Part shown: piece after piece, positions 2,313 through 18,037 of the stretch
How positions within the stretch are numbered: position 1 is the stretch's first letter
How the letters are laid out: each line of letters begins with the position of its first letter
Origin: Lachnospiraceae bacterium
GTDB lineage: Bacteria; Bacillota; Clostridia; Lachnospirales; Lachnospiraceae
Assembly: GCA_021205225.1 (NCBI GenBank)
Contig: JAJPXX010000205.1
Span: 1 to 33,561 of the forward strand
DNA length: 33,561 bases
Direction: 5' to 3'
The notes under the pieces: generated by a model
The model's input: the letters and a program-made list of their open reading frames with translations, nothing else
What the model was told of the DNA's origin: nothing
Database searches by the model: none
Translations under genes and position numbers: made by a program

Positions 2313-4337
2313 ATGAAATTTACAAAGAAGCTGGCTGCGGTTTTAATGAGCGCGCTCACTCTGGCTGCGGCGATTCCGTCTGTTCCCGCGATGGCAGACA
2401 GCCAGAAGGTTGTGACGCTTGGCGCGGATTTATCAGAAGAACAGAGGACTATGATTCTCAAATATTTCGGCATATACGGTGAGTCGAATATTGAGACACT
2501 GACTATCACGAATGAGGATGAGAGAGAGCACCTCGGTTCCTATATCCCGCTGGAGCAGATTGGCACCAGAACTTATAGCTGTGCGCTGGTGAGTCCGACG
2601 ACATCCGGAGGCATTCAGGTAAAGACGGCGAATCTTACCTATGTGACCAGTAATATGATTGCGTCGACGCTCTCTACCGCCGGTGTGGTAAACTGTGAGG
2701 TACTGGCTGCGGCTCCGTTCGCTGTGTCCGGTACCGGAGCGCTCACCGGTGTGCTGATGGCGTATGAGACGGCTTCCGGCGAGACATTGGATGAGACGAA
2801 AAAGGAAACGGCGACACAGGAGCTGGTTACTACGACAACGATCTCGGATAGTGTGGGAACAGTCGAAGCAACGCAGATCGTTAATGAGACCAAGATACAG
2901 GTCATTCAGGGTGATGTTGTCAGCACCGGCGACATTGAGGTGATTGTTGACACGGTTGCGGAGGAAGAGAATGTGACCCTTTCCGATGAGGATCGCGCCC
3001 TGCTGGTTGAGCTTATGGAAAAGATCGCGGAGCAGGATTACAACTATGAAGAGATGAGCGAGACTCTGGAGCGTGTCGAAGAAAATCTGGATTCCCTTCT
3101 CAACGAGGAAAATGATGGGACAGAAAGCTCTTCGGATGAGGAGAGTACAGAATCCGAAGAAAGCGCGCAGGAAGCAGCGTCGGAAACAGATGAGTCGGAA
3201 GAGTCAGCCCTTTCTGAAGACAGCATTCTTCTGAACACAGATGAATCCGCTCTGGGAAGCGACGTGGTGTTTGACGCGACAGATGAATCCGCTCTTTCTG
3301 AGACAGAGGCATCTGCGGAAGCAGAGACCGAGACGGAAAGCGTTTCCATTGAAACAGAAGCTTCCGATGATTATGGCTTTGATATTACAGTATCTGATAC
3401 CTATGAGGATTCGACTGGTGATGATGGCTCCTCGGATTCTGCCGACGCAGATGCTTCTGCTGACGCAGGCAGTTCCACAGAGAATGCGGCAGATGATGGT
3501 TCCGTGCAGACGGAAGGGTCGGATATCGTGGTAGATTTCGAGACTTCCGACGCCGAAGAGACGGGCGAAACCGAGGCATCTGAAGCAGAAACCGAGACGG
3601 GGTCTGAAACGGAAAGTACGATTCAGGGAATTATTTCCATAGCGGAATTGGTATTGGAGCCGAATACAGACGAGGATGCCGCGGAAACAGCTGCGATTGA
3701 GGCCGGGAGAAATTATCTGACAATTTCCACCTGGCGTACGGATCTGGTTGCGGGCACAGGAACTATTTCCGTATACGATGCGGCAGATGGCTCTCTGATT
3801 GAGACGGTAGAGATGAGTGACGCGACAAAGGTTATCTCCGAAGCGATCACAGACGTAGAGAAGCTGTATGAAATGGGAGGGTGGACAGAAGGAACTGAAT
3901 TCCGTATCTACCTGAGCAGCCCGCTGGCAGCGGATATGTCCTATTATATAGTAATCAGCGACGATGCGCTTACGACTGAAGATGGCTCTGCTTCCATACA
4001 GACCGCATTGGATGATTATCTTCTTAACTGGCATTTTGACACGCTCAGCTACGGTATTGGTGTTGATGAGACGGTAGACGGTGTGACAGCGAACAGCGCC
4101 GTGACCGGGACACTCTATGTGGATTCAGAGGTTTCTGCCTACGCATTGCTCGACAGCATCACGGTAGACGGCGTGGAGACTCTGGAGGATGGAGCGGCGA
4201 TTGCATTTACGGAAAGCTCCACCTTCGAGCTGACGATCGGACAGAGCGGAGAAGCGGTGATTCACGTATCCTATTATGATTCTGCGGAGACAATGAATCT
4301 TGTAAATGAAGCTGCTTACACAGTGACTGTGAAATAG
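2313..4337 (+). CDS. Secreted DUF1002 protein with acidic Ser/Glu linker
   Basis: The 674-residue product begins with a signal peptide (KKL, hydrophobic core, likely cut after PAMA near 27-28). Residues ~30-260 match the DUF1002 family (related to Bacillus YpuA), including the LSEEQRTMILKYFG and ITNEDEREHL segments. Residues ~265-433 are a low-complexity linker rich in Glu, Ser, Asp, Thr and Ala with short tandem repeats of TDESAL. Residues ~434-674 form a second globular, beta-rich region with no family I can name. The function of DUF1002 is not known; export and an extended acidic spacer suggest an envelope or extracellular role. It is monocistronic, with its own promoter, structured leader and 3' hairpin, and AAAGGAGAGG precedes the ATG. 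Confidence 0.8.
   Translation: MKFTKKLAAVLMSALTLAAAIPSVPAMADSQKVVTLGADLSEEQRTMILKYFGIYGESNIETLTITNEDEREHLGSYIPLEQIGTRTYSCALVSPTTSGGIQVKTANLTYVTSNMIASTLSTAGVVNCEVLAAAPFAVSGTGALTGVLMAYETASGETLDETKKETATQELVTTTTISDSVGTVEATQIVNETKIQVIQGDVVSTGDIEVIVDTVAEEENVTLSDEDRALLVELMEKIAEQDYNYEEMSETLERVEENLDSLLNEENDGTESSSDEESTESEESAQEAASETDESEESALSEDSILLNTDESALGSDVVFDATDESALSETEASAEAETETESVSIETEASDDYGFDITVSDTYEDSTGDDGSSDSADADASADAGSSTENAADDGSVQTEGSDIVVDFETSDAEETGETEASEAETETGSETESTIQGIISIAELVLEPNTDEDAAETAAIEAGRNYLTISTWRTDLVAGTGTISVYDAADGSLIETVEMSDATKVISEAITDVEKLYEMGGWTEGTEFRIYLSSPLAADMSYYIVISDDALTTEDGSASIQTALDDYLLNWHFDTLSYGIGVDETVDGVTANSAVTGTLYVDSEVSAYALLDSITVDGVETLEDGAAIAFTESSTFELTIGQSGEAVIHVSYYDSAETMNLVNEAAYTVTVK
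3237..3295 (+). repeat. Direct repeat within the acidic linker of the DUF1002 gene
   Basis: ACAGATGAATCCGCTCT occurs at 3237-3253 and again, identical over 17 bases, at 3279-3295. The period is 42 bases (14 codons) and both copies encode TDESAL. A diverged relative lies just upstream. This points to linker growth by internal duplication. Confidence 0.7.
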
Positions 4338-4348
4338 TAAGGCAGCGG

Positions 4349-4383
4349 CCTGGTGCCTGACGGATATATAGTCAGACACCAGG
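4349..4383 (+). terminator. Strong 3' hairpin after the DUF1002 gene
   Basis: CCTGGTGCCTGAC (4349-4361) pairs with GTCAGACACCAGG (4371-4383) with a single mismatch and a 9-nt loop, eleven bases after the stop codon. No T-tract follows, so it may serve as a mRNA 3' end structure rather than a classical terminator. It also forms the left end of the inverted-repeat element. Confidence 0.45.
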
Positions 4384-4660
4384 GCTGAAGTGAAAAGTTT
4401 ATTTCCACGCCAAAATTTGTGATTTTCCGGTGGATTTCACTCTTTCTGGGATTACTGGGTGAACAAGGAAGAAAAACTTCATTCCATTTACGCCATCATT
4501 TACCCAGTAGAATTGGGTAGGCCATATGGTGTAAGACTGATTTCCACTAGGTTTTTGCTGCGAACGCCGGAAATACAAGTGGAATTTTGAGTAAGACTGA
4601 ATTCCACTTGTACCCCCGAGTTGTGGAATTTAAATTTTCATTTCACCGTCAGACACCAGG
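4349..4660. repeat. Non-coding ~312 bp element with terminal inverted repeats (MITE-like)
   Basis: The ends CCTGGTGCCTGACGG (4349-4363) and CCGTCAGACACCAGG (4646-4660) are inverted repeats matching at 14 of 15 positions. The similarity continues inward: GTGAAAAG...ATTTCCAC on the left mirrors GTGGAATTT...CATTTCAC on the right. Inside are a perfect 13-bp inverted repeat (4574-4586 with 4600-4612), an ACTGGGT/ACCCAGT pair, and six or more copies of ATTTCCAC/GTGGAA-type motifs in both orientations. No ORF of note is present. I see no clear target-site duplication. It could be a miniature transposable element, another dispersed palindromic repeat, or a structured RNA. Confidence 0.6.
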
Positions 4661-4682
4661 TTTCATCTAAGATATTTTTCAG

Positions 4683-4711
4683 TTGCATTTTTCTGTGAAA
4701 TAAACTATAAT
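4683..4711 (+). promoter_or_regulatory. SigA-type promoter of the thiamine operon
   Basis: TTGCAT (4683-4688) and a consensus TATAAT (4706-4711) are 17 bases apart. The expected start, around 4718, lies just before the TPP aptamer, as is usual for riboswitch leaders. Confidence 0.8.
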
Positions 4712-4721
4712 GCCCTTATAA

Positions 4722-4811
4722 GAGACAGGGGAGCCTGTGCGGCAGGCTGAGAGGAAGTCACCCAACTTCGACCCTTGACCTGATGCGGATAATGCCGCCG
4801 TAGGAAGTCGC
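4722..4811 (+). promoter_or_regulatory. TPP riboswitch (THI box)
   Basis: The conserved blocks are all present in order: GGGGAGCC, GGCTGAGAGG, ACCCTTGACCTGAT, GGATAATGCC and CGTAGGAAG. P1 can be closed by GAC (4724-4726) with GTC (4807-4809). The P3 arm is GAAGT/ACTTC, and P4/P5 is GCGG-ATAAT-GCCGC. It senses thiamine pyrophosphate and is followed by a terminator, so it should switch off thiW-thiM-thiE-thiD-thiC when TPP is plentiful. Confidence 0.95.
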
Positions 4812-4827
4812 CAGTTGCTTTTTTCGG

Positions 4828-4853
4828 AGATACCCGCATGGGTGTCTTTTTTT
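4828..4853 (+). terminator. Riboswitch-controlled intrinsic terminator
   Basis: AGATACCC-GCAT-GGGTGTCT (4828-4847) is an 8-bp stem with one G-U pair and a 4-nt loop, followed by a run of seven T (4847-4853). CCGCAT (4834-4839) in this hairpin is complementary to ATGCGG (4783-4788) in the aptamer P4/P5 region. That pairing is a candidate antiterminator that TPP binding would prevent. Confidence 0.85.
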
Positions 4854-5218
4854 GTCCAATTAGGAAAGTTCTCCGAACTTCCTATTGGACAAAAACCCTC
4901 CGGGGGATGCATATGCCGCGCTGGAGGAAATTGTCTGCTGGCGCAGACGCGCGGCAGCGCGAGAATCCCGCAAAGCGGGATTCTATTTTACGCCTTTGCA
5001 ATAAGGCGGAGAAACATTCACGGAAATCCGTGCGGACAGAGGGGGAGCGCCCTGTGTCTTGTATCACAGCGATGGGAAGCCGTGTTCCGGCGTGAGAGGG
5101 AACCAGTAAGTTCCGACCGAACTTCCCGGAAGGGCATAAGCCTTTTCGGATAGTGGCAATGTGTCATTTTTTGCACAGACGCCACGGAGGAGCGACGCTG
5201 TGATCTGCCGTTTCTCCG
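4849..5218 (+). other. Multi-hairpin leader between the TPP terminator and thiW (candidate structured RNA)
   Basis: No gene is convincing here, but the plus strand is packed with stems. They are: 4849-4895, a ~21-bp stem with two bulges; 4915-4955, GCCGCGC/GCGCGGC enclosing GTCTGC/GCAGAC; 4962-4984, a perfect 10-bp stem with AAA loop; 4991-5008, CGCCTT/AAGGCG; 5019-5032, CACGGA/TCCGTG; 5035-5058, 9 bp with one mismatch; and 5153-5185, GTGGC/GCCAC. Two long-range 9-bp pairings nest them: CGGAGAAAC (5007-5015) with GTTTCTCCG (5210-5218), and ATCACAGCG (5063-5071) with CGCTGTGAT (5196-5204). It does not match riboswitch, T-box, tmRNA or RNase P signatures that I know. Confidence 0.55.
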
Positions 5219-5257
5219 AAACAAATCTACTATTACTTATTTCAAAGGAGAAGAATT

Positions 5258-5779
5258 ATGAAGAAGTCAACTAACATTCAGAAACTGGTAACCGCTGCTT
5301 TGCTTTGTGCTGTCGCAGTTGTCGGCAGCATGTTTTCCTTCCCCGTACTGGGGAGCAAATGCGCTCCCATTCAGCATATGGTAAACATCATTTGCGCGGT
5401 GGTACTCGGACCTGGCTACGGCGTGTGTGTCGCGTTCTGCGCGAGTCTTTTGCGCAATCTGTTTGGTCTTGGAAGCCTGATGGCTTTTCCAGGCAGCATG
5501 ATCGGTGCGTTGCTGTGCGGCCTGATGTACTGGAAAACACGGAAGGTTCTGCCGACGCTTCTGGCAGAGGTTTTCGGAACGGCGGTGCTTGGCGGCCTGT
5601 GCGCATACCCGATTGCGGTTTTCCTGATGGGAGTAGACGCAGGCGCGGTAGCATTCTACGCGTATATTATTCCATTCCTGATTTCTACGGCGGGCGGCGC
5701 GATTCTTTCTGCTGTTGTGATTTATTCCATGCAGGGATCCGGTGTACTTGCTAAGGTGCAGGCGCAGATGAATCAATAA
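5258..5779 (+). CDS. thiW: ThiW, ECF-transporter substrate-binding subunit for thiazole
   Basis: The 173-residue hydrophobic protein has about five to six membrane segments and the ThiW family signatures FSFPVLGSKCAPIQHMVN (27-44) and LLRNLFGLGSLMAFPGSMIGALLCG. ThiW proteins are predicted S components of energy-coupling factor transporters for hydroxyethylthiazole, working in the membrane with shared EcfA/EcfT subunits encoded elsewhere. The assignment rests on family knowledge and on context: it is the first gene of the TPP-riboswitch operon and lies next to thiM, whose kinase uses the imported thiazole. The ATG follows a strong AAAGGAGAAG ribosome binding site. Confidence 0.9.
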   Translation: MKKSTNIQKLVTAALLCAVAVVGSMFSFPVLGSKCAPIQHMVNIICAVVLGPGYGVCVAFCASLLRNLFGLGSLMAFPGSMIGALLCGLMYWKTRKVLPTLLAEVFGTAVLGGLCAYPIAVFLMGVDAGAVAFYAYIIPFLISTAGGAILSAVVIYSMQGSGVLAKVQAQMNQ

Positions 5780-5893
5780 AAATAAACCTTTTTATGCTTA
5801 TATCAGTACGCTTACGAATACCGATTGTTTTTCAGAAATATCTGTCCGGATCGGAAGGAGCGAATATACTGTGCCTGAAAGAGGGGCTGTCGA

Positions 5894-6823
5894 ATGTGGA
5901 AGGAATTGCTGGAAAATGTGCGGGCATATGCGCCGCGGATTCACTGCATCACCAATTATGTGTCTATGAATGACTGCGCGAATATCCTGCTGGCGTGCGG
6001 AGCGTCCCCTATCATGGCGATGGATGAAGCGGAAACTGCGCAAATCACATCAATCTGTGACGGGCTTACCATTAATATTGGCACCTTAAGCAGAGCGACG
6101 ATACCAGCTATGCTCTTGTCTGGAAAGCGTGCGAATGAACTTGGAATACCGGTTGTTCTTGACCCGGTTGGAGCAGGGGCATCCGATTTCCGGACGGAGA
6201 GTGCAGTCCGGCTTCTAAAGGAGATCCGCTTCACTGCAATTCGCGGAAATGCCTCTGAATTGCGTGCCTTGTCCGCTGCCTGTGAGGACATATTGGAACC
6301 ATGTCGGCTGTCCGCCACGAGTGAGAATTCGCTGGAGCGGCATATGTTTACCGGCGGTGTTGATGTCAGCGAGCCTGACCGGGTGACAGAAGAAAATCTG
6401 GATATCTGGATTGCCTTTGTTAAGAATTTTGCAAAGAGGACTGGGGCAGTGGTGGCTCTGACCGGTACGATTGACATTGTGGCGAATACGAATTCAGCGT
6501 TTATTATTCGAAATGGGCATTCGATGATGAGCCGCGTCACCGGGACGGGCTGTCAGCTTTCTGTATTGACAGCCGCGTTTCTGGCAGCGAATCAGATTTT
6601 TTTGACGAGAGCCGGAAAAGGGAAAAAGTATCCGGATGATGACGCAGGAAAGCTTTCCGCAGTCGCCGCAGCGGTATGCACAGTGGGTGTATGCGGAGAG
6701 ATCGCGCAGAGAAGACTGACCACGATGGATGGAAATGCGACTTATCGAAATTACATCATTGACGCAGTTTACCTTTTGACATCGCAGGAACTGGAAACGG
6801 AGGCAAAGTATGAGATGCGATAA
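5894..6823 (+). CDS. thiM: Hydroxyethylthiazole kinase ThiM
   Basis: ThiM phosphorylates 4-methyl-5-(2-hydroxyethyl)thiazole, allowing salvage of the thiazole half of thiamine. The ribokinase-fold signatures are present: CITNYVSMNDCAN (18-30), DPVGAGAS (90-97), RGNASE (117-122), ALTGTID (188-194) and the anion-hole/catalytic GTGC (217-220). At 309 residues it is longer than the usual 260-280, with extra sequence around 128-165 (EPCRL to VSEPD). The ATG has a modest AGAGGGG ribosome binding site, and 114 bases separate it from thiW. It overlaps thiE by 14 bases. Together with ThiW it forms the thiazole salvage arm of the operon. Confidence 0.93.
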   Translation: MWKELLENVRAYAPRIHCITNYVSMNDCANILLACGASPIMAMDEAETAQITSICDGLTINIGTLSRATIPAMLLSGKRANELGIPVVLDPVGAGASDFRTESAVRLLKEIRFTAIRGNASELRALSAACEDILEPCRLSATSENSLERHMFTGGVDVSEPDRVTEENLDIWIAFVKNFAKRTGAVVALTGTIDIVANTNSAFIIRNGHSMMSRVTGTGCQLSVLTAAFLAANQIFLTRAGKGKKYPDDDAGKLSAVAAAVCTVGVCGEIAQRRLTTMDGNATYRNYIIDAVYLLTSQELETEAKYEMR

Positions 6824-7445
6824 ATCCATGATGCAGCTGTACGCAGTCACTGACCGGACATGGCTTGGAGCGCATACCTTGTACGAGCAGGTGGAAGAAG
6901 CCCTGAAAGGCGGTGTTACCTGTGTTCAGCTTCGGGAAAAATATCTGCCGGAAGCAGAGTTTCTTGCCGAAGCGTTTTCGATCCGTGAGCTCTGCAAAAG
7001 ATATGGTGTCCCTTTTATCATTAATGACAATCTGGATATCGCACAGAAATGCGGGGCAGACGGCGTCCATGTCGGGCAGGAGGATATGCATCCGGATGAG
7101 GCTCGGCAGCGTGTTGGGGATGGAATGATCATTGGCGTAACTGCTCATACGGTCGCGGAAGCGGTGGAAGCCGAGAAACGCGGCGCAGATTATCTCGGAG
7201 CCGGGGCAGTATTCCAGACAGGAACGAAATCCAATACGGTTGCCCTTCCTTATGAGACGCTTTGCGAAATCTGTGCTTCTGTGCAGATTCCGGTTGTGGC
7301 GATTGGCGGCATTTCACGTACAAACCTGATGTCTCTTTCGGGAAGCGGTGTCAGCGGCGTGGCGGTTGTATCGGCAGTCTTTGCAGCGGCGGACGTGCGG
7401 AGGGCAGCATCGGAGCTTCTGGATTTATCCCGAAAAATGACGTAG
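6810..7445 (+). CDS. thiE: Thiamine-phosphate synthase ThiE
   Basis: ThiE joins HMP pyrophosphate and thiazole phosphate to make thiamine phosphate. This 211-residue TIM-barrel protein shows the family motifs QLREK (40-44), FIINDN (69-74), DGVHVGQED (84-92), IGVTAHT (108-114), GAVFQTGTK (132-140) and VAIGGI (163-168). The start at 6810 is preceded by ACGGAGG, so the 14-base overlap with the end of thiM is probably real and couples their translation. Length is normal for the family. thiD follows ten bases after the stop. Confidence 0.95.
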   Translation: MRCDKSMMQLYAVTDRTWLGAHTLYEQVEEALKGGVTCVQLREKYLPEAEFLAEAFSIRELCKRYGVPFIINDNLDIAQKCGADGVHVGQEDMHPDEARQRVGDGMIIGVTAHTVAEAVEAEKRGADYLGAGAVFQTGTKSNTVALPYETLCEICASVQIPVVAIGGISRTNLMSLSGSGVSGVAVVSAVFAAADVRRAASELLDLSRKMT

Positions 7446-7455
7446 GAGAGAAGAG

Positions 7456-8325
7456 ATGAAGACGGTATTATCGATTGCTGGAAGTGATTCAGGCGGAGGT
7501 GCCGGTATTCAGGCGGACTTAAAGACGATGACCATGCATGGAGTCTATGGCATGACAGCCGTTACGGCTCTCACCGCGCAGAATACAACGGGTGTGACAG
7601 CGGTTATGAAGGTCTCACCGGAATTTTTGCGGCAGCAGCTGGATGCGGTATTTCAGGATATCCGTCCGGACGCGGTGAAGATTGGTATGGTTCCTTCACC
7701 GGAGCTTGCAGAGGTGATTGCTTCATGTCTGCAGGCGTATCAGGCAGAGAATATTGTTGTGGATCCGGTCATGACGGCAACGAGCGGCACGCAGCTTTCC
7801 GGGGATACTGCGATCGCGCGGATGCGGGATAGAATTTTTCCGATGGCAACCGTCATCACTCCGAATATTCCGGAAGCAGAAGCCTTATCCGGCATGAAAA
7901 TCCGCACAGCGTCAGACATGGAACAGGCTGCGAAATACCTGGGAGATGCCTATGGGACTGCGGTTCTCTGCAAAGGCGGGCATCGTGTTATGGACGCGAA
8001 TGATTTGCTGTATTCCGGTAAGGCGATGGCTGACCATGCTGATGCTACGTTTGGAAAGGATAATCTTCAGACTGACATTGCAAAAGCAGGTTATTCCGCT
8101 GCCCGGTCGGGACAGTTTATATGGTTTCGGGGCGAGCGGATTCTGAATCCGAATACACATGGAACTGGCTGTACCCTGTCAAGCGCGATTGCGTCAAACC
8201 TGGCAAAAGGAATGTCTCTGGAGGAAGCGATTCGCTGCGCAAAGGATTATTTGTCCGCAGCGCTTGGAGCCATGCTGGATCTTGGAAAAGGCTCCGGACC
8301 GCTGAACCACATGGTTCATATGTAA
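7456..8325 (+). CDS. thiD: HMP/HMP-phosphate kinase ThiD
   Basis: ThiD makes HMP pyrophosphate in two phosphorylation steps; the ThiC product enters here as HMP phosphate. Signatures are AGSDSGGGAGIQADLK (8-23), VKIGMVPS, VVDPVMTATSG (101-111), ITPNIPEA (134-141), CKGGH (172-176) and the catalytic GTGC (236-239). At 289 residues it is longer than the usual ~265, with extra residues around 190-228, just before the active-site motif where pyridoxal-kinase-like relatives also vary. AGGAGAGAAG precedes the ATG. Confidence 0.94.
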   Translation: MKTVLSIAGSDSGGGAGIQADLKTMTMHGVYGMTAVTALTAQNTTGVTAVMKVSPEFLRQQLDAVFQDIRPDAVKIGMVPSPELAEVIASCLQAYQAENIVVDPVMTATSGTQLSGDTAIARMRDRIFPMATVITPNIPEAEALSGMKIRTASDMEQAAKYLGDAYGTAVLCKGGHRVMDANDLLYSGKAMADHADATFGKDNLQTDIAKAGYSAARSGQFIWFRGERILNPNTHGTGCTLSSAIASNLAKGMSLEEAIRCAKDYLSAALGAMLDLGKGSGPLNHMVHM

Positions 8326-8429
8326 GGACGTGATTCGCTTCGGCTGTCGTTAAGGCGTGTGCCAATAGCATACAGCAGGGTGCGAAAAAAGCTACATTTT
8401 TATAAGCATAAAAGGAGATCGAACACAAC

Positions 8430-9737
8430 ATGGAACGAAACTATACCACACAGATGGATGCCGCCCGACGCGGCATTGTGACGCCGGAGATGGAAACTGT
8501 AGCGAAGAAAGAACAGATGCCAATGGAGAAGCTGATGGAGCTGATGGCATGCGGGAAGGTTGTGATTCCGGCAAATAAGAATCACAAATGCCTGAACCCG
8601 GAGGGAATCGGCTCGATGCTCCGCACGAAAATCAATGTCAACCTGGGAGTCAGCCGGGACTGTAAGGACTACGACATTGAGATGCAAAAGGTAATGTCCG
8701 CCGTAGAGATGGGGGCGGAAGCGATTATGGATCTTTCCAGCCACGGCAACACAAGCCCTTTTCGCTGCAAGCTGACGCGGGAATGCCCGTCAATGATCGG
8801 TACGGTTCCGGTTTATGACAGCGTAATTCATTATCAGAGAGATCTGGATACTTTGACGGCACAGGATTTCATTGATGTCGTGCGGCTTCACGCGCAGGAG
8901 GGCGTGGATTTTATCACGCTGCACTGTGGCATTACGCGCAAGACCATTGAACAGATCCGCAGACATAAGCGGAAAATGAATATTGTATCCCGCGGCGGTT
9001 CGCTGGTTTTCGCGTGGATGTGTATGACCGGAAATGAAAATCCGTTCTATGAATATTATGATGAAATTCTGGAAATCTGCCGGGAATATGACGTCACCAT
9101 ATCCCTTGGCGACGCCTGCCGTCCCGGATGTCTCGCGGACGCGACCGACGTCTGCCAGATCGAGGAGCTGGTACGCCTGGGCGAGCTGACAAAACGAGCC
9201 TGGGAAAAGGACGTGCAGGTAATGGTGGAAGGACCGGGGCATGTGCCGATGGATCAGATTGCGGCCAATATGAAAGTGCAGCAGACGATCTGTATGGGAG
9301 CGCCGTTCTATGTACTTGGGCCTCTGGTGACAGATATTGCGCCCGGATACGACCATATCACGTCTGCGATCGGCGGTGCGATTGCGGCAATGAACGGAGC
9401 GGCATTCCTCTGTTATGTCACTCCGGCAGAGCATCTGGCTTTGCCGAATGTAGATGATGTAAAACAGGGGATCATTGCGAGTAAAATCGCTGCACACGCT
9501 GCAGATATTGCGAAGGGAATTCCAGGTGCGCGTGACATGGATGATAAGATGGCGGACGCACGCCGTCAATTGGACTGGGAAGCGCAGTGGGAATGTGCGA
9601 TTGACCCGGAGACTGCAAAAGCGATCCGCGCTGACCGTTCGCCAGAGCATGATGATACCTGTTCCATGTGTGGGAAATTCTGTGCAGTGCGCAGTATGAA
9701 TAAGGCGCTCAATGGAGAACACATTGACATTCTGTAA
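8430..9737 (+). CDS. thiC: Phosphomethylpyrimidine synthase ThiC (short form)
   Basis: ThiC is a radical SAM enzyme that rearranges aminoimidazole ribotide to HMP phosphate. The 435-residue length is that of the short form common in anaerobes, without the N-terminal extension of the ~630-residue enterobacterial enzyme. Recognisable blocks include [38 protein letters not shown] and [21 protein letters not shown]. The C-terminal cluster motif reads CSMCGKFC (411-418), that is CX2CX3C. A strong AAAAGGAG lies upstream. It ends the thiamine operon after a 104-base gap from thiD in which I see no feature. Confidence 0.96.
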
Positions 9738-9772
9738 TTCGATTTTTACACTTCTTCGCTGTGTTTAATACG

Positions 9773-9801
9773 GGCGGGGCAGGTCAAAGGCAAGCTCCGC
9801 C
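9773..9801 (+). terminator. Possible terminator of the thiamine operon
   Basis: GGCGGGGC (9773-9780) pairs with GCTCCGCC (9794-9801), including one G-U, with a 13-nt loop, 35 bases after the thiC stop. It is followed only by TATATATTTG, so T-tract support is weak. Confidence 0.45.
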
Positions 9802-9841
9802 TATATATTTGAATCGCAGGTAAAAGAAATTATATGACTTC

Positions 9842-9870
9842 TTGACAAATCTCAAAATGAGCAGTATTAT
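9842..9870 (+). promoter_or_regulatory. Consensus SigA promoter for the Xer recombinase
   Basis: A perfect TTGACA (9842-9847) and TATTAT (9865-9870) are 17 bases apart. The expected start near 9877 rules out the TTG at 9870 as start codon and supports the ATG at 9936. Confidence 0.85.
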
Positions 9871-9885
9871 TGTTTCAGGAACAAT
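9869..9885. promoter_or_regulatory. Palindrome over the -10 / start of the Xer promoter
   Basis: ATTGTT-TCAGG-AACAAT is a perfect 6-bp inverted repeat that covers the end of the -10 box and the predicted transcription start. Its position suits an operator, but no regulator can be named. Confidence 0.4.
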
Positions 9886-9935
9886 CTATACGACAAACAC
9901 ATGTTTTTCAAATAGATTACGCATGGAGGTACACG

Positions 9936-11000
9936 ATGAATCAGAATCATACAATGACTTACCAGGAAAAAGTAAACATGGATAACGTCATTCGGCTGCG
10001 TGAGGTTCTGAAGACACTGCCTGGTTTTGCAAAGGATTACTTTCGTGCGATTGAGCCGACGACTTCGACGAGAACCAGGATTTCTTACGCATATGATATC
10101 CGGATTTTTTTTCAGTTTCTTGCCTCAGAAAATCCGCTTTTCCGGGATAAGGATATTACATCACTGACGGTTGATGTGCTGGATCAGATCCAGGCTCTGG
10201 ACATTGAGGAATATCAGGAATATCTGAAGGTTTATCAGGACACAGATAATAAAACTGTCACAAATGGAGAACGCGGGCTGAAACGTAAAATGTCTGCATT
10301 GCGAAGCTTTTACGCCTACTATTTTAAACATGAAATGATTCATACGAATCCGACCGTACTGGTAGATATGCCGAAATTACATGAAAAAGAAATTATCCGG
10401 CTGGATGCGGATGAAACCGCCGGACTGCTGGATTACATCGAGCATTGCGGAGATTCCCTGAGCGGACAGAAAAAGGTTTATTACGAAAAGACGAGGGTTC
10501 GGGATCTGGCGATTGTCACTTTACTTTTGGGTACGGGAATTCGCGTGTCGGAATGTGTCGGGCTGGATGTGGATGACATTGACTTTAAGAACAATGGCAT
10601 CCGCGTTGTGCGCAAGGGCGGTTCGGAAATGATGGTGTACTTTGGCAATGAAGTGGAAACGGCACTCAGAAATTACCTGGAGTCGCGTAAGGCAATTACG
10701 CCGATTGCGGGTCATGAGAACGCTCTCTTCTATTCTACCCAGCGCCGTCGGATCGGGGTTCAGGCGGTCGAAAATATGGTTAAGAAGTACGCCCGTGAGG
10801 TCACGACGACAAAAAAAATCACACCCCACAAGCTTCGAAGTACGTATGGCACAAGTCTGTATAAAGAAACCGGCGACATCTATCTTGTCGCGGATGTCCT
10901 GGGACACAAGGATGTTAATACGACCAGAAAACACTATGCGGCAATGGATGATGAGCGCCGCCGCAAGGCTGCCAGTGCGGTGAAGCTTCGGGAATCATAA
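9936..11000 (+). CDS. Tyrosine recombinase, XerS/XerH-like single-recombinase type
   Basis: All catalytic residues of the tyrosine recombinase family are visible: R203 in GTGIRVSE, K227 in VRKGG, H298 and R301 in TPHKLR, H324 in LGHKD and nucleophile Y334 in KHYAAM. An N-terminal SAM-like core-binding domain covers about 20-140. At 354 residues it matches the XerS/XerH class (about 355) better than XerC/XerD (about 300), and the PHKLRSTYGTSLY and RDLAIVTLLLGTGIR blocks resemble XerS. The ATG at 9936 has GGAGG upstream; the track's longer TTG start overlaps the promoter -10. It is monocistronic, with no phage or integron genes nearby. A dif-like site follows the stop by 21 bases. The likely role is chromosome dimer resolution; a stand-alone integrase is the alternative. 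Confidence 0.85.
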   Translation: MNQNHTMTYQEKVNMDNVIRLREVLKTLPGFAKDYFRAIEPTTSTRTRISYAYDIRIFFQFLASENPLFRDKDITSLTVDVLDQIQALDIEEYQEYLKVYQDTDNKTVTNGERGLKRKMSALRSFYAYYFKHEMIHTNPTVLVDMPKLHEKEIIRLDADETAGLLDYIEHCGDSLSGQKKVYYEKTRVRDLAIVTLLLGTGIRVSECVGLDVDDIDFKNNGIRVVRKGGSEMMVYFGNEVETALRNYLESRKAITPIAGHENALFYSTQRRRIGVQAVENMVKKYAREVTTTKKITPHKLRSTYGTSLYKETGDIYLVADVLGHKDVNTTRKHYAAMDDERRRKAASAVKLRES

Positions 11001-11021
11001 TTCAGAGGAAACAGCCTCACT

Positions 11022-11049
11022 CGTTTACATAATATAACTCCGTAAACCT
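11022..11049. other. dif-like Xer recombination site
   Basis: Read on the minus strand, this 28-bp segment contains TATATTATGTAAAC, identical over 14 bases to positions 14-27 of Bacillus subtilis dif as I remember it. That covers four bases of the central region and ten of the XerD-type arm. The other arm diverges from the XerC-type arm. On the plus strand GTTTAC (11023-11028) and GTAAAC (11042-11047) form an inverted repeat. It lies 21 bases after the recombinase stop, between convergent genes. A weak terminator (6-bp stem followed by CTTTTTT) is the competing or additional reading. Confidence 0.55.
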
Positions 11050-11075
11050 TTTTTCGTAGACCACTGCGAAAGGAA

Positions 11076-11513
11076 TCAGCTCTCCAGGAGGATTGTAAAT
11101 GGTCCGTCGTTACAGAGGCGGACTTCCATTTTTGCTCCGAAGACACCTTTTTCTACAACCGGAACGGTTTTTCTGCACTCGGAAATGATATATTCATACA
11201 GTTCTTTGGCTGTCTGGGGATCTCCGGCTTCCGCAAAGGAGGGACGGTTCCCTTTTACACAGTTTGCGTAAAGCGTAAACTGTGAGACCAGAAGCAATGC
11301 CCCATTTACATCCTTCAATGACAAATTCGTCTTTCCGTTCGCATCCGGGAATATACGCAGCCCGAGCATTTTCCGGATCAGTTTATCCGCTTCTGCGCGG
11401 GTGTCATTTTGCCCTACACCAATCAGAACAAGATATCCCTTTTCGATTTTACCTGCTATCTCATCTCCGACTGTTACAGAGGCTTCGGTGACTCGCTGGA
11501 TTACAAATTTCAT
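11076..11513 (-). CDS. dtd: D-aminoacyl-tRNA deacylase Dtd
   Basis: Dtd removes D-amino acids (and glycine from mischarged tRNA-Ala) from tRNA in the cytoplasm. The 145-residue product has the normal length and the two signature motifs: SQFTLYA (77-83) and the Gly-cisPro motif GPFT (137-140), where the usual sequence is GPVT. AAGGAG lies upstream of the ATG at a somewhat long distance. It is the last gene of the leftward ylm/aroB operon, separated from the RluD-family gene by 104 bases in which I see nothing, and it converges on the Xer gene. Confidence 0.94.
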   Translation of the reverse strand: MKFVIQRVTEASVTVGDEIAGKIEKGYLVLIGVGQNDTRAEADKLIRKMLGLRIFPDANGKTNLSLKDVNGALLLVSQFTLYANCVKGNRPSFAEAGDPQTAKELYEYIISECRKTVPVVEKGVFGAKMEVRLCNDGPFTILLES

Positions 11514-11617
11514 GTTTCTGCTCTCTCCTTCTGTTCTCCGGTTTATCTGTCATTTCGATGTCTGTTTCTGGCCATGATTGCTGATAATTGTCCGCCTTAC
11601 AGCTTGTATGGATGGTT

Positions 11618-12529
11618 TTACTGCTTCCGCAATTTTATAAGCAATTCCTTAAAATAATCCGGAAGCGGTGCTTCCACTTCTATGTATTCCCCTGTTCCCG
11701 GATGCACAAAACCGATCGTCATGGCGTGTAACGTCTGTCCCTGTAAGTCTGGGAAAGGGCATTTTGCCGGGCCATACAATTCGTCACCGAGAACCGGATG
11801 GCCAATGCTTTTCATATGCACGCGAATCTGGTGGGTGCGGCCGGTCTCCAGCTGGCATTCGATATAAGTGAACTGGTCAAATGCTTCGAGAATATGGTAA
11901 TGCGTGACCGCGTCTTTTCCTCCCGGCACATTGACCGCCATTTCTTTTCGCCGCTGCGGGTGACGCCCGATGGATGCATGAACCGTACCGTCTTCTGTAA
12001 GTCTGCCATGTACAATCGCGCGGTATTTTCGGGTAATTGAGTGCTCCTTCAGCTGCGCCGCCACCGCCTGGTGCGCTCTGTCATTTTTGCAGACAATCAG
12101 GGAGCCGGTGGTATCCCGGTCAATCCGGTGGACAATGCCCGGACGCAGGACGCCGTTAATACCGGACAGGCTGTCTTTACAGTGATAAAGCAGGGCATTC
12201 ACCAGAGTACCGCTGTAATGGCCGGCCGCCGGATGGACAACCATCCCTTTCGGCTTATTTACAATAATCAGGTCTTCATCCTCATACAGGATATCAAGCG
12301 GGATATTTTCGGGTATGACATCCAGATCACGAACCGGCGGAAATACAATTTCGATCCGATCGTTCTCCATAATTTTCTGACCGGATTTGCATGGCTTTCC
12401 GTTTACTGTAACAGAGCCATTTTTAATCAGATCTTGCAGGCAGGATCGCGTGTACGCCTCATATCGGGCTGCGAGCAGCAAATCCAGCCGTTGTCCGTCT
12501 TCTGCTTTTAAAGCCCTGAATTCGTCCAT
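11618..12529 (-). CDS. rluD: RluA/RluD-family pseudouridine synthase
   Basis: The 303-residue protein has an N-terminal S4 RNA-binding domain (about 12-65) and a RluA-type catalytic domain with the motif HRIDRDTTG (134-142), which holds the catalytic Asp139. Further family blocks are NKPKGMVVHP (91-100) and TGRTHQIRVHM. It modifies uridines in RNA, most likely 23S rRNA as RluD does; the exact target cannot be read from the sequence. Placement directly after lspA is the common Firmicutes order (lspA-ylyB). The ATG has AGAGGGGAG upstream. Confidence 0.9.
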   Translation of the reverse strand: MDEFRALKAEDGQRLDLLLAARYEAYTRSCLQDLIKNGSVTVNGKPCKSGQKIMENDRIEIVFPPVRDLDVIPENIPLDILYEDEDLIIVNKPKGMVVHPAAGHYSGTLVNALLYHCKDSLSGINGVLRPGIVHRIDRDTTGSLIVCKNDRAHQAVAAQLKEHSITRKYRAIVHGRLTEDGTVHASIGRHPQRRKEMAVNVPGGKDAVTHYHILEAFDQFTYIECQLETGRTHQIRVHMKSIGHPVLGDELYGPAKCPFPDLQGQTLHAMTIGFVHPGTGEYIEVEAPLPDYFKELLIKLRKQ

Positions 12530-12554
12530 AAAATCTCCCCTCTGCTTATCTGAA

Positions 12555-13058
12555 TCATTTGTGGGTCTTCAAAAAAAGAAACTCCTCTGAACGATATAGC
12601 GTAAACAACAGGATTACTGCCAGCCCCGCGCCAATACATACATAGCAATCCGCGATGTTAAATACCGGAAAATCAATCAGAGAAAAATACAGGAAATCAA
12701 TCACGTAACCTCGGGCGAGACGGTCAATCATATTACCAATAGCTCCGGCTATAATAAGGGAGCAGACAAAACGCAGCGGATGGTAGCTCTTCCCGTGAGG
12801 AAACCGGACAAAGACATAGACGGCAAAAACAGAAATGATCAGGGCGATGAGCACAAAAAAAAGCTGGCGGTTATTTAAAATACCAAAAGCCGCTCCCCGG
12901 TTTTCAAGATAGTAAAGCTCAAATACCCCCGGAATCAGCGTAATTCCAGAGGTACCGGCAAGAAATCGGGCAGCGAGATATTTGGTAATCTGATCCGCGG
13001 CAATCAGCAAAAAGGTGAATACTGCCCCCGCCGCGAAAATTTTATTTCCTGTTTTCAT
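12555..13058 (-). CDS. lspA: Lipoprotein signal peptidase LspA
   Basis: LspA is the membrane aspartyl protease that cleaves signal peptides of diacylglyceryl-modified prolipoproteins. The 167-residue protein has four hydrophobic segments and the conserved blocks ADQITKY (21-27), ENRGAAFGI (52-60), GAIGNMIDRLARGYVIDF (105-122) and FNIADCYVCIG (133-143), which contain the invariant Asp residues. Length is normal. It lies between aroB (19 bases upstream) and the pseudouridine synthase gene (25 bases downstream), so it is transcribed with them. Confidence 0.95.
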   Translation of the reverse strand: MKTGNKIFAAGAVFTFLLIAADQITKYLAARFLAGTSGITLIPGVFELYYLENRGAAFGILNNRQLFFVLIALIISVFAVYVFVRFPHGKSYHPLRFVCSLIIAGAIGNMIDRLARGYVIDFLYFSLIDFPVFNIADCYVCIGAGLAVILLFTLYRSEEFLFLKTHK

Positions 13059-13077
13059 ATTCTAATCCTGTTCCTTT

Positions 13078-14208
13078 TCAGGCTTCCACAACATATTCAT
13101 AGCGGATAAAATTCAGTGCTTCCGTCATCTCTTCATCGCTCACATCCGGGACAACAACGGCGTGTCCAATTTTTTCCAGTAAAACAAAGCGGATTTTACC
13201 GGAATCCATCTTCTTGTCTTTTTTCGATGCGGCTACAATCTCGTCCGCCGTCGGCCCTTCAAAAGAAATCGGGAGGCCAAAGCCTACGTTCATGTCACGG
13301 ATCTCATAGAACTCTTCCTCATCAATCATTCCCCGCTGCCAGGAAATATAGGCGGCGGCAATTGTTCCAAGCGCTACGCACTCTCCATGTAAAAGCTCAA
13401 AATTTTTCAGCTTTTCGATCGCGTGCCCCAATGTATGACCGAAGTTAAGCAATGCGCGCTCTCCGGTCGATTCTTTAGGATCCTTTTCTACAATCGACTG
13501 CTTTAGCTCACAGCTTCTGGCAACCATAATCAGAAGCACAGAAAATTTGCGGTCTTCGATATCGCTCATATGATCAATGACCCATTCATAATAATCCGCA
13601 TCGAGAATCAGGCCATGCTTTAACAGCTCTCCCATTCCGCTGGCGAACTGGTCGTCCGGAAGCGAGTGGAGCGTTTTTATATTAATATAGACCAGGGATG
13701 GCTGATGAAAGGCTCCCACCATATTTTTGTAGCAGTCAAAATCTACGCCGGTTTTGCCGCCAATACTGCTGTCAATCTGAGAGAGCAATGTGGTTGGCAC
13801 CTGAATGAAGCGGATGCCGCGCAGATAAGTCGCCGCGGTGAATCCGGTCAGGTCGCCGACAACGCCTCCGCCCAGTGCCAGAAGATAATCGTGCCGGTCA
13901 AACCCGGCCTGAATCAGTACCTCGTACAGCTCGCGGACGTGATCCAGTGTCTTGTTCGCTTCACCCGCAGGCAATTCAAACGAGAGGACAGTATCTGTGC
14001 ATTCTCTGGCAGAGATCATAACCTCCTGCAAATAGAGCGGCGCCACATTCGAATCCGTCACAACGCATATGCGGTGCCCCGCACAGCCAATCTCATTAAG
14101 ATATGCGCTCAGCTTCCGGAAGGAATCCTGCAGGCAGATCTCATAAGGGGCATTTCCTTCTGTACGAACTGTAATTTCCATGCCCGTTCTGTATTTTCCT
14201 GTCTTCAT
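13078..14208 (-). CDS. aroB: 3-Dehydroquinate synthase AroB
   Basis: AroB converts DAHP to 3-dehydroquinate, the second step of the shikimate pathway, with NAD and a metal ion. Signatures include LALGGGVVGDLTGFTAATYLRG, VPTTLLSQIDSSIGGKTGVD, the metal-ligand blocks GMGELLKHGLI and NFGHTLGHAIE, and a KKDKK segment near the C-terminus. The 376-residue length is slightly above the usual ~360. No other shikimate genes are in the window, so aroB is separated from its pathway and embedded in a ylm-sepF-lspA operon. GAGAGG lies about 12 bases before the ATG. Confidence 0.95.
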   Translation of the reverse strand: MKTGKYRTGMEITVRTEGNAPYEICLQDSFRKLSAYLNEIGCAGHRICVVTDSNVAPLYLQEVMISARECTDTVLSFELPAGEANKTLDHVRELYEVLIQAGFDRHDYLLALGGGVVGDLTGFTAATYLRGIRFIQVPTTLLSQIDSSIGGKTGVDFDCYKNMVGAFHQPSLVYINIKTLHSLPDDQFASGMGELLKHGLILDADYYEWVIDHMSDIEDRKFSVLLIMVARSCELKQSIVEKDPKESTGERALLNFGHTLGHAIEKLKNFELLHGECVALGTIAAAYISWQRGMIDEEEFYEIRDMNVGFGLPISFEGPTADEIVAASKKDKKMDSGKIRFVLLEKIGHAVVVPDVSDEEMTEALNFIRYEYVVEA

Positions 14209-14236
14209 TGTAAAATCGAACCTCTCTTCCCCTGTA

Positions 14237-15031
14237 TCATATATATTTTTGTACTTCCGCGTAAATACGGCCTTTTCTGGTCTGTCCGCCAGTGCCGATA
14301 TAGCGAATACGCCCCATTCCGTGGACAGATACGATATCCCCTTCTTTCAGAGAATACGCATTTGTTGTAATCAGCTTTCCATTTACAAAGACATTGCCAT
14401 TTTCGATCAGCGAAAGCAGGCTGCTTCGAGATGCGCCAAAACCAAGTGCCATGACAGAATCCAGCCGGACGGAAGCAATGCTGCCGCGGATTGTCTCTGT
14501 AGCAGGCGTATAGGTAAAATGCTCCATACTGCAAAGCTCACAGGAAACCTGCGTATGGCGGATCTGCGTCAGCTCCTGACAGATCAGACCGGAAAAAGAA
14601 GAAGAGCAAAATAAATATGCTTCTTTTTCAGAGACTGCGATATCTCCTGTCTTTGATCGTTCAATTCCCAGATTCATCAGCGCTCCCAGGACGTCTCTGT
14701 GACTTAATACTTCCGCAAAACGCGCAGAGCGCGGACGGATGTGGACACAGTGAACAGGAAACACAATGCCGGAATGGGATACCGTGCATGCTTCATCATT
14801 TTCATTACTGTTCCACAAAAGCTGATCCGGGACAAAAGCAGCAATGCACCGTTCAGCTCCCTCATAACCGCCAAAAGTTTCCCCTTGGATCCAGGAAAAC
14901 TTTTGTATGGTCTTATGCAAAATATTCTGTTCGTTCAGACTCAGGAAATCTGAGAAGGTGACACACCCCCGATGTTCCGCCAGGGAAGCAAGATCCTGAA
15001 ATCGCTTTGTCAATAATCTGTCTTTTTCCAT
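14237..15031 (-). CDS. ylmH: YlmH-type S4-domain RNA-binding protein
   Basis: This 264-residue protein has the YlmH layout: an N-terminal region containing FSWIQGETFGGYEGAERCIAAF, a middle domain and a C-terminal S4 domain (about 180-250) with RLDSVMALGFGASRSSLLSLIENGNVFVNGK. YlmH proteins belong to the sepF neighbourhood of Firmicutes and are reported to bind ribosome-associated RNA. Here it follows sepF by 21 bases, preserving that link, although ylmG and divIVA are not seen next to it. The ribosome binding site is weak. Confidence 0.88.
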   Translation of the reverse strand: MEKDRLLTKRFQDLASLAEHRGCVTFSDFLSLNEQNILHKTIQKFSWIQGETFGGYEGAERCIAAFVPDQLLWNSNENDEACTVSHSGIVFPVHCVHIRPRSARFAEVLSHRDVLGALMNLGIERSKTGDIAVSEKEAYLFCSSSFSGLICQELTQIRHTQVSCELCSMEHFTYTPATETIRGSIASVRLDSVMALGFGASRSSLLSLIENGNVFVNGKLITTNAYSLKEGDIVSVHGMGRIRYIGTGGQTRKGRIYAEVQKYI

Positions 15032-15052
15032 CTGTATTCTGAGCGCCTGTAC

Positions 15053-15697
15053 CTAGAATGAGGTTCCAAACGAAGGCATATCATAGGAGCTGCCAACCAT
15101 CTCCTGAATATCGCCGGATATATCTACATTCACCGGAGTGATGATAAAGATATAATTGCTCACCTTCTGAATCTTGCCATGGAGCGCATAGCAGGAACCG
15201 CAGGTAAAATCAATAATGCGCTGAGCCAGTTCAAAATCTACGCCTTCCATATTCAGAATAACCGTACACTCATCCAAAAGAGTATCCGCCACTTCGCGGG
15301 AATCCTCAATACTTCTTGGCTTAATCACGCATACCTGCATACCACTGGTGCGCCTGGAACCAGGTGTGCGCATAGGAGAGATCTTACTGCCTGAGCGCGT
15401 TGACGTACGTGTCCCCATCTGTTTTTGAGGCTGAACACGCGGCTCTTCGGCATAAGAATCTGCTTCTTTTGCTGCCGGACGGCGACTCTCATACGCATCG
15501 TCATCATTTCTGCGAAAAGCCTGCTTTTTCGGACGCAAATCTTCTTCATCATCATTTCTGCGAAGAATCCGCTTCTTCGGACGTTCTTCCTCCGGATCGT
15601 CATAACTGTCCTCATCATATTCATCATCGAGATAATCGTCCTCAAGAACATCATCATTCATTTTAATTGCATCCAGAAACTTATCAATAACACTCAT
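15053..15697 (-). CDS. sepF: Cell-division protein SepF
   Basis: SepF bundles FtsZ and anchors the Z-ring to the membrane. I place the start at MSVIDKFLDAIKMN, the typical SepF membrane-binding amphipathic helix, preceded by GGGAG; the track's longer GTG start would add 32 residues ahead of this helix. The 214-residue protein then has a charged Asp/Glu/Lys/Arg linker (about 18-105) and a C-terminal SepF domain (about 118-200) with VCVIKPRSIEDSREVADTL and FELAQRIIDFTCG. It lies between yggS and ylmH, the classical Firmicutes order. Confidence 0.93.
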   Translation of the reverse strand: MSVIDKFLDAIKMNDDVLEDDYLDDEYDEDSYDDPEEERPKKRILRRNDDEEDLRPKKQAFRRNDDDAYESRRPAAKEADSYAEEPRVQPQKQMGTRTSTRSGSKISPMRTPGSRRTSGMQVCVIKPRSIEDSREVADTLLDECTVILNMEGVDFELAQRIIDFTCGSCYALHGKIQKVSNYIFIITPVNVDISGDIQEMVGSSYDMPSFGTSF

Positions 15698-15789
15698 TTT
15701 CTTATCTCCCACTCTGTTTGGCAACGTAAATTTCCGTTCTTTTGCACTGATATTTATCAGCAACATTCGTACCTTCGCAGTTCCGTTTA

Positions 15790-16479
15790 TCACGTATAAG
15801 ATCGCGCACCAAAAATACCGGTACCTACACGAATCATTGTGGCACCCTCTTCGATAGCCACCTCATAATCTCCTGTCATCCCCATGCTCAGATGACTCAT
15901 ATCCGTATTATCAATGTTTTTGGCTCTGATGTCAACATTTAATTTCTTCATTTTGCGAAAAACTGACCGATTATCCTCCGGATTGTCCGTATAAGGCGCA
16001 ATGGTCATCAGTCCCTCTACATGAACGCCCGGAAGCGGGGCGATCTGCCGGATCAGAGACTCTGTATCCTCCGGCGCGATGCCATATTTCGATGCTTCCC
16101 CGGCCATATTAACTTCAATCAGTATCGGCATTATCCGGTTCCTTCTGACCGCCGCTTTACTGATTTCCTCCGCCAGACGGAAGGAATCTACGGAGTGAAC
16201 CATACAGGCACGCTCTATGATATATTTGATTTTGTTTGTCTGGAGGTGCCCGATCATATGCCACTGCACATCATCGGGAAGTCTGGGAAACTTATCACGA
16301 ATTTCCTGCGGATGGTTTTCCCCAAAATCACGCACACCCTCTCGATAAATCTCTTCTATCATTTCAACCGGCTTAGTTTTACTGACTGCGATCAGCAGAA
16401 CTTCATCCCGGCTCCTGCCTGCGCGTGCGCAGGCACACGCAACTCTTTCTTCTACATCCTGTAAATTTTCTTTCAGCAT
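15790..16479 (-). CDS. yggS: YggS/PROSC-family PLP homeostasis protein
   Basis: The 229-residue protein is a single-domain PLP-binding TIM barrel. The PLP lysine is K34 in LLIAVSKTKP (28-37). Other family blocks are DFGENHPQEI, WHMIGHLQTNK, HSVDS, EVNMAGEASKYG and LSMGMTGDYEVAIEEGATMIRVGTGIFG. It binds pyridoxal phosphate and influences B6 and amino-acid homeostasis without a known catalytic reaction. In Bacillus the orthologue is ylmE, in the same position upstream of sepF. GGGAGAG precedes the ATG. Confidence 0.94.
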   Translation of the reverse strand: MLKENLQDVEERVACACARAGRSRDEVLLIAVSKTKPVEMIEEIYREGVRDFGENHPQEIRDKFPRLPDDVQWHMIGHLQTNKIKYIIERACMVHSVDSFRLAEEISKAAVRRNRIMPILIEVNMAGEASKYGIAPEDTESLIRQIAPLPGVHVEGLMTIAPYTDNPEDNRSVFRKMKKLNVDIRAKNIDNTDMSHLSMGMTGDYEVAIEEGATMIRVGTGIFGARSYT

Positions 16480-16525
16480 TTTGTCTCACTCTCCCAGACA
16501 GAATATAGTGATGTATTCTCAAAGG

Positions 16526-17890
16526 CTAATATACGATCTGATCGTCAGTCACCTGCGATGCATCCAGAGCGATATAATCATAGGCTGCGAGTCCGTATGT
16601 ATTATTGCTCTCTACAATGCAGTATTCCTCATTCTGATCGATAATCGTGACTTCCCGGAAAACCGCGTAGCCTTTATTTATATTGTAAACTCCGTAAAGA
16701 GTCTCCACATCACTTTCGGAAAGCCGTTTTCTGGCTGACGAATCATCTGTCAGCAGATAATCGTCATCCGAGAGCAATTCCTGATCTACCAGATAATAAC
16801 CATCCGAGTGACTGTATACAGTAGCAGTAATATAACTGATATTGGAGGAGCCGTCTGCCGCAAAGCTCTCAGCTTTCAGGGTAATCTCATCCTCCGAGCT
16901 GTCATTCACAATCGCGTACTCCTCCGGAATCTTATAAAAAGAACGGGAAGAGATCGCGGAGATCGGCACTTTCAGACCGGTTTTTTTATCCATAACCAGC
17001 TCAATCTCCAGGAAACGCTCCGTCACATAACGTACAAGAGAATTGGTCAGCGTAATTTTGCCGAAAGATTCATCTCCATTTGTGACGATAGAAAAAGATG
17101 CGGTAAACGTAACATTATCCTTTAAAAACCGGAATTTGATTGTGCCGGAATCCGCCAGCTCTGTGGCGAGACTGTCATCCAGCGGAAAATATAACGCCCA
17201 GTCTTCGCTCGTCACAAGTTTATATAATGTTTCACCAGCCTTTACCGTACTCTGGCTGCGCAGATTTGTTACAGAATACTCATTCTGCGAAAACATCGAC
17301 GCTGTCAGGTCAGATTCCTGCGTATCCTCAAATCCGTCAATTTTATAAAGAACAAAACCAGAAACCGGAGCGTAGCTGGCATTTCGTGTTATCAGGGTAT
17401 CATTCGAATTTTCCTGTAATACTTCTGAAATCAGGCCTTCCACACTGGACTTCAAGTCATAGGCTATTTGAAAACTGTCAGCGGAAAACTTAATCGTAAA
17501 GCTGGAAAGAATATCCCGCAGACGATCTTCATCATCCGAAGACAATGAAAAATCACTGACCGTCTGCACAACCGTACTGCCTGATTCATCAATCGCACAG
17601 ACGCTACTGCCCGCTGAGGTTTTCGCTCCCTCACGCTCAAAATACCGGACGCTGCCGGACTGCGAAGCAGTAATAATGGTCTCCTCCCGCAATGCAAGTG
17701 CTTCATATCGGTAATTTCCGGTTAGAGAACCCTTCACGACTTCATAAGAAGTAATATGCGTCTGGGTCAGATACATCACCATCATGATGATCATATAAAT
17801 AAATACAAGGATAAACAAAAGTGTTCCGATATTAAAAAAAGAATACCGCCTGTATTTTGCAATTCTTTTTTTATTGCCGCGTATATTCAA
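16526..17890 (-). CDS. HlyD-like membrane-anchored protein of the sepF cluster
   Basis: I place the start at the TTG at 17890 because it has a perfect AGGAGG five bases upstream; the track's ATG is 57 bases earlier without a better site. The 454-residue product has a short basic N-terminus (RKYRRY-like), one membrane segment (about 18-42) and a long extracellular part with a barrel-like region (EALALREETIITASQSGSVRYF) resembling HlyD/membrane-fusion adaptor proteins. No ABC or RND transporter genes lie nearby, so an efflux role is not supported by context. As first gene of the yggS-sepF-ylmH operon it may serve envelope or division functions. Family membership is moderately sure; function is unknown. 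Confidence 0.65.
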   Translation of the reverse strand: MNIRGNKKRIAKYRRYSFFNIGTLLFILVFIYMIIMMVMYLTQTHITSYEVVKGSLTGNYRYEALALREETIITASQSGSVRYFEREGAKTSAGSSVCAIDESGSTVVQTVSDFSLSSDDEDRLRDILSSFTIKFSADSFQIAYDLKSSVEGLISEVLQENSNDTLITRNASYAPVSGFVLYKIDGFEDTQESDLTASMFSQNEYSVTNLRSQSTVKAGETLYKLVTSEDWALYFPLDDSLATELADSGTIKFRFLKDNVTFTASFSIVTNGDESFGKITLTNSLVRYVTERFLEIELVMDKKTGLKVPISAISSRSFYKIPEEYAIVNDSSEDEITLKAESFAADGSSNISYITATVYSHSDGYYLVDQELLSDDDYLLTDDSSARKRLSESDVETLYGVYNINKGYAVFREVTIIDQNEEYCIVESNNTYGLAAYDYIALDASQVTDDQIVY

Positions 17891-17967
17891 GAAAGCCTCC
17901 TGTGAAAATAACAATATCTGTAATACAGTCAAGCGTGCGATAATCATTTGCCTTACGCATAAACCTT

Positions 17968-17996: not shown

Positions 17997-18037
17997 GCAA
18001 TTTTGAATAAAAATTAAAAAGAATGGGGATTCTATGA

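Follow-up and report, generated by a model that had tools for sequence, protein, structure and literature searches.

The window, a stretch of 33,561 nucleotides corresponding to contig C25 of a 3.46-Mb Lachnospiraceae draft genome (240 contigs, 98.6% complete), very probably carries, at the replication terminus, a module for the resolution of chromosome dimers. As judged from sequence comparison, this module would consist of an XerS-like tyrosine recombinase gene (xerS) and a 34-bp dif site, which we named difS, directly upstream of it. The original prediction of a one-recombinase Xer module with the site next to the gene was supported, but the site is probably the upstream difS and not the downstream segment that had been proposed. 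The features of the window were as follows.

1..33000, no strand: GC-skew switch; in 1-kb bins, all positive over 1-11000 and nearly all negative after 11001
9842..9870, plus strand: promoter-like TTGACA-17-TATTAT upstream of difS, with 11/12 consensus matches
9884..9917, plus strand: proposed dif, named difS, ATC-TATACGACAAA-CACATG-TTTTTCAAATA-GAT, with an 11-6-11 core at 9887-9914 within symmetric 3-bp flanks
9936..11000, plus strand: XerS-like tyrosine recombinase gene, 354 aa, catalytic residues R203, K227, H298, R301, H324 and Y334
11023..11047, no strand: downstream palindrome GTTTACATAATATAACTCCGTAAAC with XerD-type arms, the dif of the original prediction; judged to be a second terminus-linked element and not dif
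11076..11513, minus strand: convergent neighbour from the ORF list, D-aminoacyl-tRNA deacylase-like (putative name from its own sequence); gene orientation flips here

The open reading frame confirmed the predicted 354-residue recombinase with its full RKHRHY set, and all six residues were unchanged across 20 orthologues, namely the window protein and 19 others with identities to it down to 45%. A match was found in 59 of the 60 relatives searched, with a clear orthologue in most of those. Comparison with the NCBIfam models revealed the XerS equivalog NF003462 as the top match with 208 bits, followed by XerA (177), XerC (172) and XerD (154). Yet the XerS cut-off is 267 bits, a value that was exceeded in one of 14 control genomes, and because the score falls short of it we did not class the recombinase as XerS. 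The solved structures nearest to the recombinase in the PDB, both by sequence and by fold, included XerA, XerD and XerH, with sequence scores of 77 bits for XerA, 76 for XerD and 42 for XerH (5jjv, E 5e-10). The AF2 model had a pTM of 0.61, only a moderate value for the overall shape, and the fold matches were therefore used solely to confirm the superfamily. The promoter-like sequence at 9842-9870 is likely the xerS promoter, although the pattern itself is weak, as shuffles would be expected to give 2.6 such sites and three were found.

The palindrome before the recombinase gene was first noticed by comparing complete chromosomes from other families, and a scan then located the copy in the window, which reads ATCTATACGACAAA-CACATG-TTTTTCAAATAGAT. 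We found that the pattern ATCTATACGACAAA-N6-TTTTTCAAATAGAT scored at least 24 of 28 at 77 of the 81 orthologue loci and at most 19 at shuffled loci; two of the four loci below the threshold were interrupted by a contig end, and the shuffled window gave no chance match at all. The original prediction had overlooked this element, which is better conserved than the site downstream of the gene. Its conservation ended sharply at both edges of the 34 bp, and the flanks were not conserved. Across the orthologue loci, difS lay 52 to 1456 bp upstream of the gene and was inverted in orientation seven times. It was found at one place in the genome of the window and as a single copy beside the gene in nearly all genomes of the same genus. 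Beside the orthologues from other families within the class lay a variant site, TATTCGCAAAA-CACAAG-TTTTGCGAATA and similar. difS was not recognisable at two loci (L082 and L119), and five genomes (G055, G051, G058, G049 and G127) contained no convincing copy within ~9 kb by the motif used. Additionally, G052, a genome of another family, had difS-like palindromes at C221:745, C221:1005 and C227:7625, none of them on the xerS contig.

The main genes of the window were mostly on the plus strand to the left of the site and mostly on the minus strand to its right. The terminus of this genome was placed by local skew only, as its draft assembly consists of 240 contigs. In the five complete chromosomes sampled, all from other families, the recombinase gene was located at the switch from positive to negative skew in every case, and the 3-kb skew was positive before and negative after the gene locus in 52 of 56 orthologous loci. 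Where difS and the gene were well apart, the intervening stretch was already negative in most cases (-0.18 in G054, -0.14 in G041, -0.19 in G181 and -0.09 in G077; -0.24 in both L100 and L103, -0.22 in L107 and -0.18 in L084), the exceptions being G036 and G042. The peak of the cumulative skew usually lay ~0.9 kb beyond difS, close to the 3' end of xerS, so that the peak alone cannot single out the site; this offset can be explained by the coding-strand skew of xerS itself. We also observed that the change of sign was unusually sharp, falling within ~1-3 kb of the site both in the window, where the change is at 11001, and in L296, L316, L336 and L356. Such a sharp switch would be useful for asking whether replication forks meet at dif.

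The recombinase had been described as solitary, which does not hold when strictly taken, as the source genome revealed 17 tyrosine-recombinase domain matches, including an XerD-like gene on contig C77.

8389..9420 of L023 (G000:C77), minus strand: XerD-like gene, catalytic Lys lost

This was the only other gene close to the XerC and XerD models (322 bits, cut-off 329.6), and its neighbourhood includes an ScpB-like gene (named by eye). Upon alignment with E. coli XerD, the catalytic Lys was found to be replaced by Asp and the first catalytic His by Gln, and the Tyr was shifted by one residue; from its sequence, the protein looks catalytically dead. The XerD-like copies checked in the same genus had Asp or Glu at the Lys position wherever it was readable, and four of them stopped before the Tyr region. 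Nine copies outside the genus were also without Lys at that position in the E. coli XerD alignment, and XerD was absent in many families of the order. XerC was looked for in the source genome and not found. We infer that the source genome has a single active Xer recombinase, with XerC missing and the XerD-like protein inactive. The original prediction had set against itself a pair of separate XerC and XerD genes together with a better dif; the better dif does exist, but the search gave no XerC, and the XerD is degenerate. In four small genomes of relatives (G049, G044, G077 and G181), the XerS-like gene was the sole tyrosine recombinase. The FtsK gamma domain was present with a score of 98.7 bits. 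Other integrases were considered as a second Xer, namely an XerA-like enzyme beside an HsdS-like frame on C16 and a row of three on C30, and were judged to be mobile or phase-variation enzymes. In the case of C16 (G000:C16 25837-26304, L004), the HsdS-specificity-subunit-like reading frame follows the recombinase directly, and the enzyme is probably a type I restriction phase-variation invertase.

The palindrome downstream of xerS forms a second element. Its minus strand at 11023-11036 reads TATATTATGTAAAC, and the predicted identity with the B. subtilis dif over 14 bases was exact (14/14; PMC3025954); the genome contained no further copy of this 14-mer, even with one mismatch allowed. Relatives have a fuller form, GTTTACATAA-N5-TTATGTAAAC, with two XerD-type arms and a 5-bp gap, which the window palindrome matched at 17 of 20 positions and shuffled loci at no more than 15. 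Among the 60 relatives, the palindrome was largely restricted to the genus of the window and mostly located on the contig of the recombinase gene. It was missing from five genomes in or near Blautia and from others, as well as from most other families that keep the gene, and perfect palindromes looked for near the recombinase gene in Blautia were not found. At the loci examined, the palindrome was positioned between -6.7 and +11.9 kb relative to difS, with up to four copies per genome, and where it was displaced the GC skew mostly had the same sign on either side, with no flip. Within the genus, one to four copies occurred within ~12 kb of difS, some spaced exactly 50 bp; besides window positions 11023-11047, such loci were present in G016:C9, G009:C6, G003:C73, G020:C12 and G022:C125. 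The two bases flanking the arms were also symmetric in more than half of the cases. A second GTTTAC-N13-GTAAAC sequence at G000:C85:9072-9096, a near-perfect XerD-type palindrome that is conserved in the genus, falls inside a conserved reading frame of an acetyl-CoA synthase/CODH cluster and was rejected as a coincidence of codons.

With regard to what this palindrome is, we tentatively consider that it is the relic of an XerD-type site, or such a site put to a new use, to which the XerD of the genome, catalytically decayed as it is, would bind as a homodimer; this explanation is possible and still rather unlikely. Both half-sites of the full palindrome equal the Firmicutes XerD arm, XerD-like genes without the catalytic Lys persist across the genus, and the palindrome is linked to the terminus; nevertheless, several XerD-bearing genomes have no palindrome and a few palindrome-bearing genomes are seemingly without XerD. 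Moreover, symmetric changes outside the arms and, in some copies, A/T-tract flanks would also suit a terminator hairpin, features that were checked on a few sequences only. The XerD-like homodimer site was our first guess and a terminator-like hairpin the second. The wider arrangement, in which the XerS-like enzyme would do all the chemistry at difS and the decayed XerD would be kept as a non-catalytic DNA-binder on the multi-copy terminus palindromes, is a doubtful proposal.

That 11022-11049 is itself the dif, its divergent arm reflecting new arm rules for the recombinase, was the claim of the original prediction and now seems highly improbable. The palindrome is not consistently kept downstream of orthologues, and its absence from many gene-bearing genomes, its multiple copies and the lack of a skew flip at displaced copies make it a poor dif; in addition, its inner gap is 5 bp rather than 6, and a stricter and far more conserved site is located on the opposite side of the gene. 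These points stand against an XerD-type arm shared with the B. subtilis dif, uniqueness in the genome, proximity to the skew switch of the window and similar palindromes near the gene across much of the genus.

It is also most unlikely that the upstream element is an operator for xerS autoregulation instead of a recombination site. Although the element is mostly found 50-300 bp upstream of the start codon and closely follows the promoter-like sequence in the window, it is sometimes 0.9-6 kb away or inverted, the GC-skew switch tracks it, and phages without xerS have it between genes with altered centre bases. The same element could serve as both operator and recombination site.

We found the own-family form of difS on nine IMG/VR contigs and the other-family form on 30, while exact reversals of both patterns gave no match in IMG/VR. 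Among the difS-bearing contigs that were examined are tailed phages, which encode terminase and portal proteins and have the site between genes; in the phage copies, the left arm was conserved and the centre was changed. The viral contigs L426-L434 and L442-L471 have difS-like sites with altered centres; in several of them, which are tailed phages, the site is close to genes for terminase. A second difS-like site in G007 (C76:12389-12422, L403), ATCTATACGACAAACAGTAATTTTTCCAATAGAT, has a phage-type centre and lies away from xerS; it is perhaps the trace of an integrated element. By peptide scan, the difS-bearing viral contigs had no close XerS relative, save the host-flank copies in L438 and L439. 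In these two isolate records, inovirus-type genes (a rolling-circle replication protein and a Zot/gene-I-like ATPase) end at difS, and an XerS-like gene 61% identical to that of the window lies ~0.7 kb past the site. Similar inovirus-type genes precede difS in L458, where the host LexA gene follows it.

L438, 5183..5216: difS site abutting an inovirus-type element
L439, 8588..8621: difS site abutting an inovirus-type element
L458, 5997..6030: difS site abutting an inovirus-type element

These elements are probably prophages using the host recombinase. Each of the three inserts was seen at one end only. Their probable integration would fit published cases in which dif is used by filamentous phages and, in Legionella, by LME-1, an integrating mobile element that uses the host dif (PMC9765430). 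With the 34-mer as query, BLAST searches among named phages and plasmids returned nothing useful. An integrase of a mobile element with difS as its attachment site is scarcely credible for the window gene: a tyrosine recombinase with an adjacent palindromic site and the phage genes alongside it in L438 and L439 fit such an origin, but the gene has a match in nearly every relative and a clear orthologue in most, occupies the terminus in the five complete chromosomes from other families, is the sole tyrosine recombinase in reduced genomes and keeps a fixed place beside the host skew switch.

In the dimer resolution module that we favor, two recombinase monomers would occupy each difS, on its two unequal arms (TATACGACAAA and TTTTTCAAATA), and two such sites would pair. 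The septal FtsK gamma domain would probably trigger exchange over the 6-bp CACATG centre, which would resolve the chromosome dimer into two monomers. The strand order and direction would be set by the unequal arms and the asymmetric centre, as they are in difSL and difH. Both filamentous and tailed phages seem to have mimics of difS and to enter the chromosome via the host recombinase.

Single-recombinase Xer systems are known from streptococci and lactococci, epsilonproteobacteria, archaea and Legionellales. In the literature searched, we found no report of one for Lachnospiraceae or other gut Clostridia, and an XerS/difSL-type single-recombinase system in Clostridia is apparently undescribed there. 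Orthologues with a recognisable site occur in a large part of the order and in some parts of the class. If our reading is correct, it would provide the dif site of a large group of gut bacteria, together with an insertion point for phages relying on the host recombinase, and the states of XerD (full-length without the catalytic Lys, truncated or gone) would represent steps on the way from a two-recombinase to a one-recombinase system.

We compared the module with the known Xer systems. Similar to XerCD/dif of Bacillus subtilis, it has a terminus-linked 11-6-11 site, and the downstream palindrome contains the common XerD arm. In contrast to XerCD/dif, XerC was not found, XerD is degenerate and the arms of difS are different; by sequence, the genome has neither two active recombinases nor a unique site with an XerC and an XerD arm, the palindrome having XerD-type arms, a 5-bp gap and multiple copies in relatives. 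The XerL/dif system of Legionellales likewise has a single recombinase and a dif that serves an integrating mobile element as well, whereas its arms are unrelated and perfectly symmetric, and its gene and site are >400 kb apart instead of adjacent (PMC9765430). XerH/difH of Campylobacter and Helicobacter resembles the module in having one recombinase of similar size, an adjacent site and unequal arms (PMC2731167). The right arm of difH, TTTTCAAATA, is close to the TTTTTCAAATA of difS, while the left arm and the centre differ (PMC2731167), and the sequence match to XerH was weak, its 42 bits falling below the 77 of XerA and the 76 of XerD in a PDB search. Finally, XerS/difSL of Streptococcus and Lactococcus also has one recombinase, of ~356 aa, and a gene-adjacent site at the terminus, with imperfect inverted arms whose inner ends are AAA and TTT (PMC5357621), and the FtsK gamma domain is present in the genome of the window. 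The differences lie in the score under the XerS model cut-off, the arm sequences, the centre (6 bp in difS as judged by symmetry, compared with a reported 11 bp in difSL), the class of Firmicutes and the decayed XerD-like paralogue retained here. As in XerS/difSL, the sequence points to a single active Xer, a gene-adjacent site occurring once per genome and a module at the terminus, placed in this genome by local skew.
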